NCBI GenBank assembly: GCA_024280265.1
Contig: JAJRQL010000109.1
Coordinates: 1 to 47,162, forward strand
Direction: 5' to 3'
From: Deltaproteobacteria bacterium
Lineage (GTDB): Bacteria; Desulfobacterota; Desulfobulbia; Desulfobulbales; Desulfocapsaceae
DNA length: 47,162 bases
Positions 2,900 through 12,066 of the stretch are shown in pieces; position 1 is the first letter of the stretch, and each line of letters starts with the position of its first letter. The notes below the pieces were generated by a model. It searched no databases. It saw only the letters and a program-made list of their open reading frames with translations, and was not told the origin of the DNA. The position numbers and the translations under genes were made by a program.

Positions 2900-4438
2900 A
2901 TGGATACTCCTCTTTTTGATCTGGCTGTAGTTGGTGGTGGAATTAATGGTTGTGGTATTGCCCGAGATGCAGCAGGTCGTGGGCTGTCGGTTTTTCTTTG
3001 TGAGCAAAGCGATCTTGCCAGTGGTACATCATCTGCCAGTACCAATCTTATCCATGGTGGTTTACGTTATCTCGAATATTATGAATTTCGACTGGTCAGA
3101 GAAGCACTGAAGGAACGGGAGGTTCTTCTCAATGCGGCGCCTCACATTATCTGGCCGTTGCGCTTTATACTTCCACACCACAGGGGATTGCGTCCCGCCT
3201 GGTTGATCCGTCTCGGATTGTTTCTTTACGATCACATCGGAGGGAGGAAGTTGTTGCCTGGCACAAGCAGTGTCAATCTCCAGACAGATGTGGCAGGAGT
3301 CCCACTGAAGGGAGACTATAAAAAAGGGTTTGAGTATTCAGACTGCTGGGTAAAAGATAGTCGTCTAGTCGTTCTCAACGCTCAGGACGCTGCTGACAGG
3401 GGGGCTGATATACGAGTCAGGACACCTTTGCTCTCAGCCACAAGAGAGAAAGGGATCTGGACACTGACTCTCCGTGATAAAAAGAGTGGTCTTCAAAGTA
3501 CGGTGCAGGCTAAAACACTGGTGAATGCCAGTGGGCCCTGGCTTGATACACTTCTTCCGCATATCTCTCATACAAAAACGGCGAAGCATATTCGGATGGT
3601 GAAGGGGAGCCATATCGTAGTGAAAAAGCTTTTTGATCATGAGCGTGCCTATCTGTTCCAGAACGATGATGGACGAATCATCTTTGCTATTCCCTTTGAA
3701 AATGAATTTACCCTTATTGGCACCACCGATGTGGATTTTCATGGTGAGCCGGACGAGGTTAGTATAGACGCCACAGAAATCGGCTATCTATGTGATGCTG
3801 CAAATGAATATTTCACAACCAGGATCGTTCCTGAAGATGTGGTGTACAGTTACTCCGGGATTCGGCCTCTTTTTGATGATGGTAAAAGTGATGCCAAGGC
3901 GGCCACTCGGGATTATGTGCTTACACTGGATACAGGGGAGATGGAAGATGAAGCGCCGCTGCTTTCTATTTATGGTGGAAAAATTACGACATATAGAAAG
4001 CTTGCCGAGTCGGTGCTGAGAAAACTTTCTCCCTTTCTTCCCCAAATGAAAGATCCCTGGACAGAGAAGGCCACACTTCCAGGGGGAGATTTTTCACCAG
4101 ATGCTTTTTCGGAAGAAGTGAAAACACTCATGCTGTCATGCCCGTTTCTCTCTAAAAACAATGCGACACGGTTAATCAGAACTTATGGGACGAAGGCTCA
4201 TGAGATGTGTAGACTTGTCAATAATGATGCAGCTTCAGTGGTTCAATTTGGAGAACAGCTCTACGCTTTTGAAGTGGATTACCTTATTGCTGAAGAATGG
4301 GCACAGACAGCAGAAGATATACTCTGCAGGAGAACCAAAACCGGGATTTTCCTGAACTCTGAAGATGTTGGTCGACTGGAAGAATATATAGAACAGAAGC
4401 TGCAGAAGAAAAATCAACCGTCTCCAATAAACGACTGA
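2900..4438 (+). CDS. glpD: FAD-dependent glycerol-3-phosphate dehydrogenase
   Basis: Oxidises sn-glycerol-3-phosphate to dihydroxyacetone phosphate at the membrane, passing electrons to quinone. The 512-residue length is normal for the aerobic-type GlpD. The FAD-binding fold is at residues 6-36 (DLAVVGGGINGCGIARDAAG, then E35). SASTNLIHGGLRYLEYYEF and TLVNASGPWLDTLL follow, with VKGSHIVV, FAIPFENEFTLIGTTDVD and SGIRPLFDD further on, all typical of the family. The C-terminal helical DAO_C region is present (about residues 390-500). The ribosome site AAGGAAGAG lies close before the ATG. It is the first enzyme of the cluster and is separated by only ten bases from the transporter ATPase gene. 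Confidence 0.96.
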   Translation: MDTPLFDLAVVGGGINGCGIARDAAGRGLSVFLCEQSDLASGTSSASTNLIHGGLRYLEYYEFRLVREALKEREVLLNAAPHIIWPLRFILPHHRGLRPAWLIRLGLFLYDHIGGRKLLPGTSSVNLQTDVAGVPLKGDYKKGFEYSDCWVKDSRLVVLNAQDAADRGADIRVRTPLLSATREKGIWTLTLRDKKSGLQSTVQAKTLVNASGPWLDTLLPHISHTKTAKHIRMVKGSHIVVKKLFDHERAYLFQNDDGRIIFAIPFENEFTLIGTTDVDFHGEPDEVSIDATEIGYLCDAANEYFTTRIVPEDVVYSYSGIRPLFDDGKSDAKAATRDYVLTLDTGEMEDEAPLLSIYGGKITTYRKLAESVLRKLSPFLPQMKDPWTEKATLPGGDFSPDAFSEEVKTLMLSCPFLSKNNATRLIRTYGTKAHEMCRLVNNDAASVVQFGEQLYAFEVDYLIAEEWAQTAEDILCRRTKTGIFLNSEDVGRLEEYIEQKLQKKNQPSPIND

Positions 4439-4448
4439 GGAGAAATGC

Positions 4449-5537
4449 ATGGAGCTTGAGTTACGCAATGTTTCCAGGAAGGTCGGTGGAGAGTTTCATA
4501 TTACGGATGTTTCTCTCACCTTTAAGACAGGAACCCTGAACATTCTCCTGGGTGCCACCCTTTCGGGAAAAACATCCCTTATGAGATTAATGGCGGGGCT
4601 TGATCGGCCAACCTCCGGGAAAATATTTGTACGAGGTGAAGATGTAACAGGTGTTGCGGTGCAAAAAAGAAATGTGGCCATGGTGTATCAGCAATTTATA
4701 AATTATCCCAACCTCACCGTTTTTGAAAATATAGCCTCTCCGTTACGTATTGCCAGGGTTCCCAAAAACATCATTAAACAGAAAGTGGCGGAGGTTTCAC
4801 GTCTTCTCAAGCTTGATAACCTGTTGACGCGCAAGCCCAATGAACTTTCCGGCGGCCAGCAGCAGCGCACAGCTCTGGCAAGAGCACTTGTGAAAGGAGC
4901 TGAACTGGTACTGCTGGATGAGCCTCTTGCCAATCTCGATTACAAATTACGAGAAGAGTTGCGGGAAGAGCTTCCGCGTATCTTTGCGGAGACAGGAGCT
5001 GTCTTTGTTTATGCCACCACGGAACCTTCCGAGGCTCTCCTTCTGGGCGGAAATACGGCATCGCTCCATGAAGGGAGAGTCACCCAGTTTGGGCCAACCA
5101 TTGATGTGTTCAGAGAACCGGCCAATCTTATGACTGCACAAACGCTCTCGGATCCTCCGTTGAACACTTTGCCTGTGACAAAACTTAGCAACAGGATGCT
5201 CCATAAAAGTCATATTGAGATTCCACTTGTCGGAAATCTTTCTGAGTTACCCGATGCGGATTACACAATGGCCTTCAGGCCGTATCACCTCTTTCTTCAA
5301 CAGAGTTCCGATGCCATGATCAACGTAAAAGCCAAGGTGGTTGTTGCGGAAATCACAGGATCAGAATCATTTATACATATTGATGTCGCCGGAATGAGGT
5401 GGGTTGTGTTGGCTCAAGGCATTCATAACCTTGATATAAACGAGACGATAGATGTGTTTCTTGATCCTGCAAAATTTTATGTTTTTGACAGAAATGAACA
5501 ACTGGTTGCAGCACCGGGAACGAAATCGGTCGCCTGA
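4449..5537 (+). CDS. glpS: Glycerol ABC importer ATPase, first of two (GlpS type)
   Basis: A 362-residue ABC ATPase with an MalK-like C-terminal extension. Walker A is GATLSGKT (35-42), the signature is LSGGQ (133-137) and Walker B is LVLLDEP with the catalytic glutamate at 158. The H-loop position, normally YVTHDQ, reads YATTEP, so the switch histidine is replaced by threonine (about residue 191). With glpT next door, whose signature is degenerate but whose H-loop is intact, it probably forms a heterodimer with a single fully competent ATP site. The gene order matches the glycerol importer glpSTPQUV described in Rhizobium leguminosarum. A GAGGAG ribosome site precedes the ATG. Confidence 0.88.
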   Translation: MELELRNVSRKVGGEFHITDVSLTFKTGTLNILLGATLSGKTSLMRLMAGLDRPTSGKIFVRGEDVTGVAVQKRNVAMVYQQFINYPNLTVFENIASPLRIARVPKNIIKQKVAEVSRLLKLDNLLTRKPNELSGGQQQRTALARALVKGAELVLLDEPLANLDYKLREELREELPRIFAETGAVFVYATTEPSEALLLGGNTASLHEGRVTQFGPTIDVFREPANLMTAQTLSDPPLNTLPVTKLSNRMLHKSHIEIPLVGNLSELPDADYTMAFRPYHLFLQQSSDAMINVKAKVVVAEITGSESFIHIDVAGMRWVVLAQGIHNLDINETIDVFLDPAKFYVFDRNEQLVAAPGTKSVA

Positions 5538-5552
5538 CAGGAGAGCTTGACA

Positions 5553-6641
5553 ATGGCCCATATTACCCTGGAGAATATTGCCCACTCATATACAGGAAAC
5601 CCTGAAAATCATGAAGATTGTGCTTTGAAAAAGGTGAATCTTTCCTGGCGGAATGGTGGTGCCTATGCCCTTCTCGGGCCTTCTGGATGCGGTAAGACCA
5701 CTTTGCTTAATATAATCTCAGGGCTCCTTCATCCAAGCAGAGGAAAGGTTCTTTTTGACACTGAAGACGTTACAGGTATGTCTACGGAACAGCGTAACAT
5801 AGCGCAGATATTTCAGTTCCCAGTAGTTTACGACACGATGACGGTTTTTCAGAACCTGGCCTTTCCGTTAAAAAACAGGGGAAGAAAACAGAAAGAAATA
5901 GAGCCCCGGGTTATAGAACTTGCCAAAATACTTGGTCTTGAAAAAGATCTCCACACCAGGGCGCAGCACCTTACCGCCGATTCTAAACAGAAGATTTCGC
6001 TGGGCAGGGGGCTTATTCGCAAAAGTGTCAATGCTATCCTCTTTGATGAGCCATTAACGGTGATAGATCCGCAGTTAAAGTGGGAGTTGCGCTCTCAGCT
6101 GAAGTTTCTTCATAAAAAATTTGGTTTTACCATGATCTATGTAACCCACGATCAAACGGAAGCCTTGACCTTTGCAGATGAAGTTGTGGTCATGTATGAG
6201 GGAGAAATTGTGCAGACGGGCACGCCGGAGGCCCTTTTTGAGAAGCCGGAACATACCTTTGTTGGTTATTTTATCGGCTCCCCGGGGATGAATGTGTGTG
6301 CCTGTGAACTGCAGGGTAATCAGGTGGTTATCGATGGTTATATGCTGTCTCTTGGCAGGAAGTATCCGGATCTCGGCTCCAACTCAAAAATTGAAATAGG
6401 CGTGCGGCCCGAGCATTTAAGGCTTGTTCCTTCTGACAGGGAAGGGCTGCCGGTGAAAATTATAAAAGTCGATGATATTGGTCGTCACAGGATAGTCCGT
6501 GTTGTTTTCAACAACACGAAATTCAACGTTATTGTTTCGGATATGACGGAGCTTGCCGACGGGAACTGTTCGCTCGTGTTTGATACAGAGCATACTCATA
6601 TTTATGTAGATGACCATCTTGTTTCAGGAGAAGAGCTATGA
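5553..6641 (+). CDS. glpT: Glycerol ABC importer ATPase, second of two (GlpT type)
   Basis: A 362-residue ATPase starting at the ATG at 5553, which has AGGAGAG eight bases upstream; a TTG two codons earlier is less likely. Walker A is GPSGCGKT (42-49), Walker B is AILFDEP with glutamate 166, and the H-loop is YVTHDQ (H199). The signature is not LSGGQ but LTADS (140-144), followed by KQKISLGRGLIR. The C-terminal regulatory/OB-like region runs from about residue 240. It is not the unrelated MFS antiporter also called GlpT in E. coli. The last codon overlaps the ATG of glpP (ATGA), which suggests translational coupling. Confidence 0.88.
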   Translation: MAHITLENIAHSYTGNPENHEDCALKKVNLSWRNGGAYALLGPSGCGKTTLLNIISGLLHPSRGKVLFDTEDVTGMSTEQRNIAQIFQFPVVYDTMTVFQNLAFPLKNRGRKQKEIEPRVIELAKILGLEKDLHTRAQHLTADSKQKISLGRGLIRKSVNAILFDEPLTVIDPQLKWELRSQLKFLHKKFGFTMIYVTHDQTEALTFADEVVVMYEGEIVQTGTPEALFEKPEHTFVGYFIGSPGMNVCACELQGNQVVIDGYMLSLGRKYPDLGSNSKIEIGVRPEHLRLVPSDREGLPVKIIKVDDIGRHRIVRVVFNNTKFNVIVSDMTELADGNCSLVFDTEHTHIYVDDHLVSGEEL

Positions 6642-7522
6642 TTGAAAAACAAGTCAATCAGAAGGCATGGTTTATGGTGCTGCCGGTCTTTCTCGTGGTG
6701 GCTTTCAGTGCCATTATCCCGTTGATGACAGTGGTAAATTATTCGGTACAGGATACCTTTGGTAATAATCAGTTTTTCTGGGTCGGGATGGACTGGTTTC
6801 GGGATTTGCTACATTCTGAGCGTTTCCATGATGCTTTTTTCAGGCAGGTCAGTTTTTCTGCGATTATTTTATGCATCGAAATTCCGCTTGGAATTGTTAT
6901 TGCTCTTGCCATGCCAAGGAAGGGCTGGGGAGTTCCCGTCTGTCTGATTACCATGGCTCTGCCGCTTCTCATTCCATGGAACGTTGTTGGTACAATATGG
7001 CAGATCTTTGCTCGTGTGGATATTGGTTTACTTGGTCACACACTCGCTGCCCTTGGCGTTGATTATAACTATACTCAGGATCCGGTTGCTGCGTGGATTA
7101 CCATTATCATTATGGACATCTGGCACTGGACCAGCCTTGTTGTCCTATTGTGCTATGCCGGTCTCTGCTCAATCCCTGATGCCTATTATCAGGCGGCCAA
7201 AATTGATGGTGCTTCACGGTTGTCCGTTTTCAGGTATATCCAGCTGCCCAAGATGCAGAGAGTTTTGCTGATAGCAATTCTTCTTCGATTTATGGACAGT
7301 TTTATGATCTATACCGAACCCTTTGTTATTACCGGGGGTGGCCCTGGTAATTCCACCACTTTTATGTCCATTGATCTGGTAAAGATGGCAATCGGTCAGT
7401 TCGATCTTGGTCCTGCTGCCGCCATGTCGCTCATCTACTTTCTTGTTATTCTTCTGCTCTGCTGGGTTTTCTTTACGGTTATGAGCAACATCGGAGAAGA
7501 ACGTTCGAAGGGAGGTGCCTGA
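6638..7522 (+). CDS. glpP: Glycerol ABC importer permease GlpP
   Basis: A 294-residue MalF/UgpA-like inner-membrane permease. Six hydrophobic segments are visible: residues 10-32, 73-92, 100-125, 150-170, 205-225 and 260-283. The cytoplasmic coupling loop with the EAA-type motif reads YYQAAKIDGASRLSVFRYI (about residues 186-204). It would pair with GlpQ to form the glycerol channel driven by GlpS/GlpT. It overlaps glpT by four bases at ATGA, and its stop lies one base before the probable glpQ start, so the genes are tightly coupled. Confidence 0.88.
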   Translation: MIEKQVNQKAWFMVLPVFLVVAFSAIIPLMTVVNYSVQDTFGNNQFFWVGMDWFRDLLHSERFHDAFFRQVSFSAIILCIEIPLGIVIALAMPRKGWGVPVCLITMALPLLIPWNVVGTIWQIFARVDIGLLGHTLAALGVDYNYTQDPVAAWITIIIMDIWHWTSLVVLLCYAGLCSIPDAYYQAAKIDGASRLSVFRYIQLPKMQRVLLIAILLRFMDSFMIYTEPFVITGGGPGNSTTFMSIDLVKMAIGQFDLGPAAAMSLIYFLVILLLCWVFFTVMSNIGEERSKGGA

Positions 7523-7523
7523 C

Positions 7524-8321
7524 ATGCGCTGGAAGTGGATGCTACCAACAGTTTATATCTGTTTTCTGCTGCTGCCGATTTATTGGTTGCTTAATATGAG
7601 CTTGAAGACGAATGCGGAAATTCTCTCAACCTTCAGTTTTTGGCCGCAGCACCTTACTCTTGATAACTACCGGGTTATCTTTACCGACCCATCCTGGTAT
7701 TCGGGGTATATTAATTCGATGATTTATGTTTCTTTGAATGTGATTATCTCAGTAAGCTGTGCTCTTCCAGCGGCCTATGCTTTTTCACGCTACAGCTTTG
7801 TTGGTGATAAGCACCTTTTTTTCTGGCTGCTCACTAATCGCATGGCACCGCCTGCCGTTTTTGCTTTACCATTTTTCCAACTGTATTCATCCATCGGTTT
7901 GTTTGATACCCATATCGCTGTGGCTCTGGCGCATTGTCTCTTTAATATTCCTCTTTCGGTCTGGATACTGGAAGGGTTTATGTCTGGAGTTCCCAGGGAG
8001 GTAGATGAAACGGCCTTTATTGATGGATACTACTGGCCTCATTTTTTTGTAAAGATCTTTATGCCGAACATTGCTTCCGGTATTGGTGTTACAGCGTTCT
8101 TCTGTTTTATGTTTTCCTGGGTGGAGTTGTTACTGGCTCGTACTCTCACTGCAGTTAATGCAAAACCCATTGCGGCCATCATGACCCGTACAGTTTCCGC
8201 TTCCGGCCTTGACTGGGGGGTGTTGGCTGCTGCAGGTATGCTGACCATACTGCCTGGGGCTCTTGTTATCTGGTTTGTGCGTAATCATATCGCCAAGGGT
8301 TTTGCCCTTGGACGTGTATAG
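7524..8321 (+). CDS. glpQ: Glycerol ABC importer permease GlpQ
   Basis: A 265-residue MalG-like permease starting at ATG 7524, with GGGAGGTG seven bases upstream; a GTG three codons earlier overlaps that ribosome site and is unlikely. Hydrophobic segments appear near residues 6-25, 68-90, 103-125, 134-155, 185-205 and 235-255. The coupling loop reads REVDETAFIDGYYWPHFFVKI (split across about residues 155-175). It partners GlpP. The name follows the rhizobial transporter and should not be confused with the glycerophosphodiesterase GlpQ. Confidence 0.87.
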   Translation: MRWKWMLPTVYICFLLLPIYWLLNMSLKTNAEILSTFSFWPQHLTLDNYRVIFTDPSWYSGYINSMIYVSLNVIISVSCALPAAYAFSRYSFVGDKHLFFWLLTNRMAPPAVFALPFFQLYSSIGLFDTHIAVALAHCLFNIPLSVWILEGFMSGVPREVDETAFIDGYYWPHFFVKIFMPNIASGIGVTAFFCFMFSWVELLLARTLTAVNAKPIAAIMTRTVSASGLDWGVLAAAGMLTILPGALVIWFVRNHIAKGFALGRV

Positions 8322-8333
8322 GGAGGAGGGAAA

Positions 8334-8615
8334 ATGGATTTTAGCTGGATGGCCTGGACAAAACCCACAGCCACATTTTTTGCCATTATATTCTGCCTGC
8401 TTGTTACCTTGACGATCTGGGAAATAAAAATTCCCGGCGGTGCACCGAGAAGAGGTATATTGCAATTCGAGACCACCAGAGGAGACCGATTGTTTATCTC
8501 TTTACTTGGTGCTGCGTATATCCATATTTTTTGGTTGGCTTTTTTGAGCTTGAGCATCTGGTGGGCTTTGCTCATTGCCTGTTTGTATGCGATTTGTGTA
8601 TTTGTATGGGTGTAA
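8334..8615 (+). CDS. glpU: Small membrane protein GlpU (DUF2160-like)
   Basis: A 93-residue protein with a GGAGGAGG ribosome site. It has one hydrophobic segment near residues 10-28 and a second broad hydrophobic stretch at about 50-92 that probably crosses the membrane twice; between them are IKIPGGAPRRGIL and the polar stretch FETTRGDRL. The size, membrane pattern and position between glpQ and the binding protein match the small DUF2160 protein of glycerol ABC loci. Its biochemical job is not known to me; it probably associates with the permease pair. Confidence 0.8.
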   Translation: MDFSWMAWTKPTATFFAIIFCLLVTLTIWEIKIPGGAPRRGILQFETTRGDRLFISLLGAAYIHIFWLAFLSLSIWWALLIACLYAICVFVWV

Positions 8616-8682: not shown

Positions 8683-10398
8683 ATGATCAAAAATTTTGTT
8701 ACAGCAGCCATGGCTGCCTTGCTGGCAGGACCTTTGTCGGCACAAGCGGGGACTTTAGAGGCAAAAAAATGGATTGAAAATGAATTTCAACCATCCACCC
8801 TCTCTCAAGAAGAGCAGATGGAAGAAATGAAGTGGTTTATCAAGGCCGCTGAACCTTTCAAGGGGATGGAGATCAACGTGGTTTCCGAGACGATTACCAC
8901 CCATGAGTATGAATCCAAGACCCTTGCAAAGGCTTTCACAGAAATAACAGGAATAAAGGTAAATCATGACCTTATTGGTGAAGGCGATGTAATCGAAAAG
9001 CTGCAGACCCAAATGCAGTCCAATAAAAATATTTATGATGCCTACATCAACGATTCTGATCTTATCGGAACTCACTTCAGGTATCAGCAGGCGGTATCTC
9101 TTTCAGACTGGATGGCTGGTGAGGGAAAGGATGTGACAAATCCGGGACTTGATGTGGATGATTTTATCGGAATTTCATTTACCACAGGCCCGGACGGGAA
9201 GTTGTACCAGATTCCCGATCAGCAGTTTGCCAATCTCTACTGGTTCCGTTATGACTGGTTTAAGCGGCCGGAGCTTAAGAAAAAATTCAAGGAAATCTAT
9301 GGCTATGAACTGGGCGTACCTGTAAACTGGTCTGCCTATGAGGATATTGCCGAATTTTTCACAGACAAGGTAAAAGAGATTGACGGTAAGCGTGTCTATG
9401 GTCATATGGATTATGGCAAGAAAGATCCTTCTCTTGGCTGGCGTTTCACCGATGCCTGGCTGTCAATGGCAGGTGCAGGAGACAAGGGGATTCCAAACGG
9501 TCTTCCAGTGGACGAGTGGGGCATCAGGGTTGAGGGGTGTAGGCCTGTTGGTTCTTCTGTGGAGCGCGGAGGTGCCACCAATGGCCCTGCTGCTGTGTAT
9601 GCATTGTCAAAATATATAGAGTGGATGAAAAAATATGCTCCACCCGAAGCTGCCGGCATGACATTCTCTGAAGCAGGACCGGTTCCTGCCCAGGGAGGTA
9701 TTGCTCAGCAGATCTTCTGGTACACAGCCTTTACAGCGGATATGGTTAAACCGGGTATTGCAGTTGTGGACGAAAACAATATGCCGAAATGGCGTATGGC
9801 GCCTTCACCTCGTGGCCCTTACTGGCAGGAGGGAATGAAACTCGGATATCAGGATGCCGGTTCCTGGACACTGATGAAATCAACTCCGGTTGATCGCCGT
9901 AAGGCTGCCTGGCTGTACGCCCAGTTCGTTATTTCCAAAACAGTCAGTTTGAAAAAAACTCATGTGGGTCTCACTCCCATCCGGGAAAGCGATCTCTGGC
10001 ATGAATCTTTTACAAAGCGTGCTCCTGAGCTTGGCGGTCTGGTTGAATTTTACCGCAGCCCTGCCCGTGTTCAATGGACTCCCACAGGAACAAATGTTCC
10101 TGATTATCCAAAACTGGCACAACTCTGGTGGCAGAATGTTGCTGATGCCGTCACCGGTGATAAAACTCCACAGGAAGCTATGGACAGTCTTGCGCAGCAG
10201 CAGGACAAGATCCTGCAACGCCTTGAGCGGGCAAATGTTCAGGGCGAGTGCGGGCCAAAGTTGAATAAAAAACGGGATGCCTCATACTGGTTGAATTTGC
10301 CAGGTTCTCCGAAACCAAAGCTTGCCAATGAGAAGCCTCAGGGTGTGACCGTGGACTATGACGAGCTTATTAAAAGCTGGGCTGCTGCAAAAAAATAG
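8683..10398 (+). CDS. glpV: Periplasmic glycerol-binding protein GlpV
   Basis: A 571-residue extracellular solute-binding protein with a signal peptide (MIKNFVTAAMAALLAGPLSA, cleaved near QAG). It is larger than the usual 400-450 residues of the MalE-like family, as expected for this glycerol-importer subgroup. The region KAFTEITGIKVNHDLIGEGD (about residues 86-105) is typical of family-1 binding proteins, and the N-terminal WIENEFQPSTL segment resembles the glycerol-binding branch. An AAAGGAGGATATCC ribosome site supports strong expression, as usual for binding proteins. Two hairpins follow the gene. Confidence 0.88.
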   Translation: MIKNFVTAAMAALLAGPLSAQAGTLEAKKWIENEFQPSTLSQEEQMEEMKWFIKAAEPFKGMEINVVSETITTHEYESKTLAKAFTEITGIKVNHDLIGEGDVIEKLQTQMQSNKNIYDAYINDSDLIGTHFRYQQAVSLSDWMAGEGKDVTNPGLDVDDFIGISFTTGPDGKLYQIPDQQFANLYWFRYDWFKRPELKKKFKEIYGYELGVPVNWSAYEDIAEFFTDKVKEIDGKRVYGHMDYGKKDPSLGWRFTDAWLSMAGAGDKGIPNGLPVDEWGIRVEGCRPVGSSVERGGATNGPAAVYALSKYIEWMKKYAPPEAAGMTFSEAGPVPAQGGIAQQIFWYTAFTADMVKPGIAVVDENNMPKWRMAPSPRGPYWQEGMKLGYQDAGSWTLMKSTPVDRRKAAWLYAQFVISKTVSLKKTHVGLTPIRESDLWHESFTKRAPELGGLVEFYRSPARVQWTPTGTNVPDYPKLAQLWWQNVADAVTGDKTPQEAMDSLAQQQDKILQRLERANVQGECGPKLNKKRDASYWLNLPGSPKPKLANEKPQGVTVDYDELIKSWAAAKK

Positions 10399-10488: not shown

Positions 10489-10575
10489 ATTTTGGGCTCG
10501 CCGTGTTTTTAGTGATTTATACATGATACGTCCTGTTAGTCTGGACTGGTGGATTCTTGTCAAGAGAGGAACATA

Positions 10576-12066
10576 ATGTCTGTGAATATACTTGCAATTG
10601 ATCAGGGGACAACCTCCAGCAGAGCAATTATTTTTAATGAGAAACTTGAAATAATTGCGCAGGCTCAGCAGGAATTTGAACAATTTTTTCCACGATCAGG
10701 ATGGGTTGAGCATGACCCGGAAGAAATCTGGTCCACGACTCTCTCATCCTGTAAGCGAGTGTTGGAGAAGTCGTCTCTTTCCGCTTCTGATATTGCAGCC
10801 ATAGGGATCACAAATCAAAGGGAAACAACACTTGTCTGGGACAGAGAGACCGGGGATGTCGTGTATAATGCGATTGTCTGGCAGGATCGCCGGACGGCGG
10901 ATTTTTGCAGGAAGTTGCAGCGCGACGGGTATGGTCAGATGATTGCTGCAAAGACTGGCCTTCTGCTTGATTCCTATTTTTCCGGGACTAAAATCAGGTG
11001 GATACTGGATAATGTGCCAGGTGCAAAGGAAAAAGCCCATGCCGGGAAACTTGCCTTTGGAACCGTTGATACTTTTCTTCTCTGGCGACTGACCGGTGGA
11101 AAACAGCATGCAACGGATGCGACCAATGCATCCCGCACCATGCTCTACAATATTCATGAAAACATCTGGGACCAGGAAATTCTGCAACTTCTGGATATCC
11201 CGGAGGCGTTGCTTCCTGAAGTGAAAGATTCCTCCGCTGATTTTGGACTGTGTGAAAACAGTATGTTCGGTGCCCCACTTCCAATCCGGGGAATGGTCGG
11301 GGATCAGCAGGGGGCTCTTGTCGGCCAGGCATGTTTTGAACCAGGTATGATTAAGTCAACGTATGGCACCGGTTGTTTTATTGTTTTGAACACCGGCAGG
11401 GAGGCATTTGTCTCAAAGAATAAATTATTAACAACCATCGCCTATCGGCTTGATGGATGTACAACCTATGCCCTTGAAGGCTCAATTTTTGTCGCAGGAG
11501 CAGCGGTTCAGTGGATGCGGGATGCTCTTGGCCTTATCGAGAGTGCTTCAGACAGTGGAGAGCTTGCCCGCAAAGCCGATGTGAACCAGGATGTATATCT
11601 GGTTCCGGCCTTTACCGGGCTTGGCGCACCCCATTGGGATTCCGATGCCAGGGGGGCGATATTTGGAATTACCAGAGCGACAGGTCCTGCCGAGCTATCA
11701 CGGGCTGCCCTGGAATCCGTATGCTATCAGACACGGGATCTGCTTGAGGCAATGCAGGGAGACGTGACGCACAGTTCTGATATCGTACTGCGTGTAGACG
11801 GTGGTATGGTGGCCTCTGATTACACCATGCAGTTTCTGGCTGATATTCTTAATGCACCGGTGGATAGACCCGTAATTCTTGAAACCACGGCAGTTGGTGC
11901 CGCATATCTTGCGGGACTCTATCAGGGACTCTTCCCTGCCCCGAGGGAATTTGCTGTCAGCTGGAAACGTGACAAGCGCTTTTCTCCATCCATTAACGAT
12001 GAACTGCGAGCCAGGAAGTATGATGGCTGGAAAGATGCGGTCTCAAGAACTTTAAGCAGGAGTTAA
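10576..12066 (+). CDS. glpK: Glycerol kinase
   Basis: Phosphorylates imported glycerol to sn-glycerol-3-phosphate, the substrate of GlpD and presumed inducer of GlpR. The probable start is ATG 10576 with AGAGAGGAA before it, giving 496 residues, normal for GlpK; a GTG nine codons upstream is less likely. The ATP-binding motif [12 protein letters not shown] is at about residues 6-17. [30 protein letters not shown], the [14 protein letters not shown] motif and [19 protein letters not shown] are all present, so the FGGY-kinase fold looks complete. Unlike the order in some bacteria, it is the last gene of the cluster and is separated from glpV by a terminator. Confidence 0.96.

Follow-up and report, generated by a model that had tools for sequence, protein, structure and literature searches.

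A probable GlpS-GlpT heterodimer with two unlike ATP sites in a CUT1-type glycerol import operon

Introduction

The maltose transporter MalFGK2 is the textbook importer, its two ATP sites being identical; maltose transport suffers severely when one MalK subunit is mutated. The need for both sites is hard to address in MalK-type importers because mutating one subunit mutates both.

ATP sites of ABC proteins are composite, the A-loop and H-loop being supplied in cis, the signature in trans and the D-loop lying at the interface (PMC7756269, available part). In some exporters a degenerate site holds ATP throughout the cycle (PMC7756269 and PMC7756565, in the portions available), while RbsA and NupO are importers described with one degenerate site in the accessible text of PMC11466899. 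The gene names glpSTPQUV are those used in the available part of PMC7912956, which credits the glycerol importer to Ding 2012.

Organization of the glp operon

The window, that is the whole stretch of DNA analysed (47,162 nucleotides, contig JAJRQL010000109.1 of a Desulfocapsaceae genome, assembly GCA_024280265.1), carries a complete GlpSTPQUV gene set composed of two CUT1 ATPases, two permeases, a DUF2160 protein and a solute-binding protein, together with glpD and glpK. Glycerol is predicted to be the substrate of this importer on gene context only. The features are the following:

1849–2640, + strand: DeoR/GlpR-type regulator (top match PRK10906, under its cut-off)
2900–4438, + strand: glpD, glycerol-3-phosphate dehydrogenase (NF008899, above cut-off)
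4449–5537, + strand: glpS, CUT1-type ABC ATPase with canonical signature and without the H-loop His (ORF of 362 aa; orthologues)
5553–6641, + strand: glpT, CUT1-type ABC ATPase with the H-loop His and a changed signature (ORF; ATG 5553 likelier than TTG 5547)
6638–7522, + strand: glpP, permease (PF00528)
7515–8321, + strand: glpQ, permease (PF00528)
8334–8615, + strand: glpU, small DUF2160 membrane protein (PF09928, 115.3 bits; same position in named operons)
8683–10398, + strand: glpV, solute-binding protein (PF13416, 28.8 bits)
10549–12066, + strand: glpK, glycerol kinase (TIGR01311, above cut-off)

The glpU-like gene is smaller than the size limit of the initial ORF list. The listed GlpT ORF (5547–6641) opens at TTG 5547; ATG 5553 is the likely start because it is preceded by AGGAG and orthologues start at the same Met. 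Genes glpS and glpT (4449–6638) lie in one frame, with 9 bases from the glpS stop to the TTG, and this frame relation is common to 84 loci having both genes (duplicates counted). Identical gene order is annotated on named alphaproteobacterial plasmids, including pRL9 of R. johnstonii 3841. Among the matches of the named search, the closest named GlpT outside the genome of the window is that of Desulfopila sp. IMCC35008 (71%).

GlpS and GlpT, which are about 27% identical, are CUT1/MalK-type ATPases composed of an ABC domain and a carboxyl-terminal OB-type domain, with UgpC/MalK as nearest relatives. The top NCBIfam match of both is UgpC NF008653 (249.5 bits for GlpS and 273.5 bits for GlpT, both under the curated cut-off of 432). 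An OB_MalK match is found in GlpT only (27.6 bits, cut-off 27), and the predicted halves of both proteins match MalK-type structures over their whole length (Z 31–37). A quick tree placed GlpS and GlpT apart, each forming one clade with SH-aLRT 100; a tree uniting them is 7.2 log units better and is not rejected (p-AU 0.64).

Sequence motifs and assignment of the ATP sites

The motifs relevant for ATP binding and hydrolysis are listed below. GlpT residue numbers count from TTG 5547, and fractions refer to readable unique orthologues, described in the next section.

4482–4484, + strand: GlpS Val12 at the A-loop aromatic position (Val in 188/199)
4551–4574, + strand: GlpS Walker A GATLSGKT, Lys present, Thr-Leu replacing the usual Ser-Gly (Lys in 200/200)
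4845–4868, + strand: GlpS signature LSGGQQQR, residues 133–140 (LSGG in 201/201)
4908–4940, + strand: GlpS Walker B and D-loop VLLDEPLANLD (alignment)
5010–5027, + strand: GlpS H-loop YATTEP, Thr191 in place of His, codon 5019–5021 (Thr in 192 and Ser in 9 of 201)
5589–5591, + strand: GlpT A-loop Tyr15 (Tyr in 204/204)
5676–5699, + strand: GlpT Walker A GPSGCGKT, canonical (alignment)
5970–5993, + strand: GlpT signature LTADSKQK, residues 142–149, both glycines substituted (AD in 196, PD in 9 and AA in 1 of 206)
6036–6053, + strand: GlpT Walker B ILFDEP, canonical (alignment)
6054–6068, + strand: GlpT D-loop LTVID (TVID in 206/206)
6147–6149, + strand: GlpT H-loop His201 within YVTHDQ (His in 206/206)

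These motifs bear out the sequence-only reading that GlpS pairs an LSGGQ signature with Thr at the H-loop, where relatives read YVTHDQ, and that GlpT keeps the H-loop His beside an LTADS signature. Two further departures emerge when GlpS and GlpT are aligned together with 24 other CUT1-like ATPases. The A-loop position, Phe or Tyr in all 24, is Val12 in GlpS, and the GlpT D-loop has TVID where S/A-N/A-LD is expected. Walker A GxxxxGKT, the Q-loop Gln and Walker B DE are present in both subunits. The Q-loop regions are fixed within each subunit and different between them (QF[IV]NYP in GlpS versus QFPV[IV]YD in GlpT), a distinction that would fit docking to different permeases.

By the known geometry of ABC sites, the four departures (GlpS A-loop and H-loop, GlpT signature and D-loop) would all fall on one composite site, the other site being canonical and built from the Walker side of GlpT and the LSGGQ signature of GlpS in trans. 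Assuming a GlpS-GlpT dimer, the motifs thus agree with the earlier proposal of a fully canonical GlpT site opposed to one having neither the His nor a good signature. Four defects would share one site at random with a chance of 1 in 8, so that the strength of the case rests on their fixation and not on their number. The odd site displays a feature of degenerate sites, a changed signature in GlpT facing changed catalytic motifs in GlpS. Loss of the Walker B Glu or of the Walker A Lys, which is common but not universal in such sites, is absent: both residues are retained. An AlphaFold2 model of a fused GlpS-GlpT chain (GlpS stop read as Gly, 730 residues, 36 orthologous rows) gave a pLDDT of 79.9 and a pTM of 0.57, the halves being folded and their interface undefined.

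The departures stand out against other members of the family. In 80 distinct other MalK/UgpC-like (CUT1) ATPases drawn from relatives and Pseudomonadota, the H-loop His and the A-loop Phe/Tyr are each found in 80/80, the first signature Gly in 78 and the second in 79. Eight other tandem CUT1 pairs (L239, L248, L320–L324 and L332) have the His and the second Gly in both members, one member of L322 reading LSSGD; tandem pairing by itself therefore does not imply degeneration. In the genome of the window, 37 ABC rows were aligned, of which 26 have the H-loop column (11 unread), and 23 of these 26 carry the His. The three that do not are GlpS and two LivF-like subunits.

Conservation and distribution of GlpS and GlpT

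The orthologue set comprises 229 loci, many from close relatives, that yielded 211 GlpS and 213 GlpT sequences (204 and 206 unique, respectively). The window itself (L001, L004) and five loci from genomes already represented by earlier loci (L125–L129) were omitted. The H-loop residue of GlpS is unread in three of the 204 unique rows and Thr or Ser in the others. Its A-loop position is Ala in four readable rows besides the predominant Val, and Met, His, Arg, Ile, Phe, Thr or Ser in one each. The Q-loop Gln of GlpS is found in 200/200 readable rows and its Walker B Asp-Glu in 201/201. Eighty loci came from the search patterns AQ[VI]FQFPV and LFDEPLTV, which bias them towards parts of the GlpT Q-loop and D-loop (LTV); when these are set aside, the signature and H-loop pattern, with TVID in GlpT, is present in 124/124 readable GlpS and 128/128 GlpT. 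After clustering at 60% identity the pattern is present in 18/18 GlpS and 12/12 GlpT clusters, and plasmid pRL9 of R. johnstonii 3841 (L130) also has it.

The entropy of GlpT TVID is 0, compared with a median of 1.19 over the whole protein, and that of GlpS YATTEP is 0–0.26 bits, where the GlpS median is 1.34. Within the GlpT LTAD, the second position varies more (0.85). Judged from these alignments, the odd-site residues appear about as conserved as the canonical motifs, with no drift. Their fixation over about 200 distinct pairs argues for function and not decay. The co-conservation check proposed with the sequence-only reading found that every readable orthologue pair has both substitutions, neither being missing at random.

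The GlpST importer is widespread. GlpS profile matches occur in 85/398 Pseudomonadota genomes, and GlpT is present in 38/257 genomes of the class of the window. A GlpT query from the distant pair L137 matched in 56/299 of those Pseudomonadota genomes; the same 56 have GlpS, and every match adjoins a GlpS match. At all 218 loci with both genes (duplicates counted) the order is glpS then glpT, on one strand. GlpT is found without a readable GlpS at three loci (L035, L036 and L089), each match lying near a contig end.

This arrangement bears on whether GlpS and GlpT could form separate homodimers or be parts of different transporters. Homodimers are the norm in CUT1 importers (PMC11466899, Table 2, available part), and nothing seen here favours them for GlpS and GlpT. 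The strict co-occurrence and adjacency of the genes speaks against separate assemblies, and a GlpS2 or GlpT2 dimer would carry two defective sites, which counts for the heterodimer. Separate assemblies are thus very hard to credit.

Tabrizicola (L134, 5004–7080) and Ponticoccus (L137, 3949–6089) encode distant GlpS/GlpT-like pairs that are asymmetric in the same way, in operons that have an NAD(P)-dependent alcohol dehydrogenase gene and no annotated glpD, glpK or DUF2160 gene. The occurrence of the pattern in a different operon indicates that the asymmetry can occur apart from glycerol genes.

Record L055, titled Enemella evansiae TN21-6, appears to lie in Pseudomonadota and not in Actinomycetota: the genomes drawn for its phylum match those drawn for Cocleimonas, which form the Pseudomonadota sample. 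The distribution given here therefore does not extend to Actinomycetota.

Proposed operation of the GlpST ATPase

It is likely that an obligate GlpS-GlpT heterodimer powers GlpPQ(U)V, with one hydrolytic site and another that is non-hydrolytic but probably holds nucleotide. The heterodimer, the nucleotide occupancy and the stoichiometry are what we infer from the motifs and their conservation. The two subunits would pair obligately, and the ATP sites of the glycerol importer they drive would differ from each other. In every cycle ATP would be hydrolysed at the site combining the GlpS signature with the A-loop, both Walker motifs and the H-loop of GlpT. The GlpS side, with its Val A-loop and Thr H-loop, and the GlpT LTAD and TVID motifs would not support hydrolysis at a useful rate. 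This odd site would probably still hold nucleotide as a conserved non-hydrolytic hinge. The importer thus probably burns one ATP per cycle, and the predicted cost is about one ATP per glycerol.

The lack of turnover at the odd site is expected because the GlpS side has no His and faces a signature without glycines. Mutants in the H-loop of MalK and HisP have less than 2% ATPase activity, MalK H192R among them (PMC6222333, in the available part), a result that also argues against a working ATPase in which Thr or Ser substitutes for the His, LTADxKQK is a lineage-specific signature and both sites hydrolyse. The fixed Walker A Lys, Q-loop Gln and Walker B Asp-Glu of GlpS and the strict conservation of the odd residues are compatible with such an enzyme. 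The change of both glycines, of the A-loop aromatic residue and of the D-loop at a single site opposes it further, and we regard it as rather unlikely. The odd site may hydrolyse slowly, given that GlpS has an intact Walker B Glu and Walker A Lys as well as the Q-loop Gln.

Because of these retained residues the odd site, on the GlpS side, may well still bind Mg-nucleotide. The earlier description of this site as silent is not supported as stated, since Walker A Lys, Q-loop Gln and Walker B Asp-Glu are kept and the odd residues are conserved. If GlpS were a purely structural partner at a site devoid of nucleotide, nothing would constrain its Walker A Lys and Walker B Asp-Glu, but they are fixed. 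The A-loop aromatic residue is missing in 197 of the 199 readable GlpS, and an Asp sits where the signature Gly contacts the gamma-phosphate, both of which would suit an empty site; we nonetheless consider it improbable. A non-hydrolytic site that holds nucleotide is the preferred reading.

GlpST would provide a natural separation of the two sites in which each can be mutated alone, and would let the ATP cost per substrate be measured with one built-in odd site.

Other asymmetric importers and comparison with known systems

A second asymmetric CUT1 pair is encoded at L325 (1712–4624). Its first ATPase has the signature LSVNILQR and its second has a DDP Walker B with LSGGE. The second ATPase used as query was found in 5/396 genomes (that of L325 among them) and in four plasmid records. 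LSVNILQR and the Walker B Glu-to-Asp change are both present in 9/9 operons (L325, L338–L346; L343 is from Pararhizobium qamdonense), near genes coding a Gfo/Idh/MocA oxidoreductase, a sugar isomerase, an aldose epimerase and an SDR protein. From their motif positions both lesions would again lie on one composite site, and they differ from those of GlpST. The pair is taken as a case independent of GlpST, an older common pairing being also possible. A second, unrelated set of lesions would make asymmetry a recurring solution. We tentatively propose, at somewhat short of an even chance, that CUT1 importers became asymmetric at least two times (GlpST and the LSVNI/DDP pair of Rhizobiales/Rhodobacterales), with an odd site kept non-hydrolytic by strong selection and a cost of about one ATP for each small polyol or sugar imported.

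The asymmetry had been called unusual for an importer. This holds for the MalK/UgpC (CUT1) type but not for importers overall, as seen from LivFG in this same genome and from RbsA and NupO (PMC11466899, available part). Importers with unlike sites are already known; for the CUT1 case, and for GlpS/GlpT site asymmetry in particular, we found no earlier description in the open-licence literature.

GlpSTPQUV of R. leguminosarum VF39 and of Cupriavidus metallidurans is arranged as in the window, glpD and glpK included, and pRL9 of R. johnstonii 3841 and other named plasmids have the same operon and motif pattern; the asymmetry of the sites goes unmentioned in the available part of PMC7912956. The MalK/UgpC CUT1 ATPases resemble GlpS and GlpT in fold, family and top sequence matches. 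MalK-type subunits are normally identical and form two canonical sites, whereas GlpS and GlpT are unlike and carry one set of defects each, and so do not conform to the MalK-type homodimer.

The LivG/LivF-like pairs of the genome of the window (L358 and L360, named from top NCBIfam matches under cut-off) show complementary departures in signature and H-loop. The LivF-like member has LSGGE and, at the H-loop, VEQN in both pairs. Its LivG-like partner keeps the His and reads LSYGA with IEHDM in one pair and LAFGQ with VEHDM in the other. The complementarity is that of GlpST, but LivFG lacks the MalK-type carboxyl-terminal domain, other residues are involved and the transporter class is different. 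In the CUT2-type RbsA and NupO the two domains are fused in one chain and the second Walker A has no Lys, which GlpS retains. TM287/288, TAP and Pdr5 combine one consensus and one degenerate site with the signature changed in the opposite subunit, as in GlpST (PMC7756269, available part). These are exporters and mostly lack the Walker B Glu, whereas GlpS retains it.
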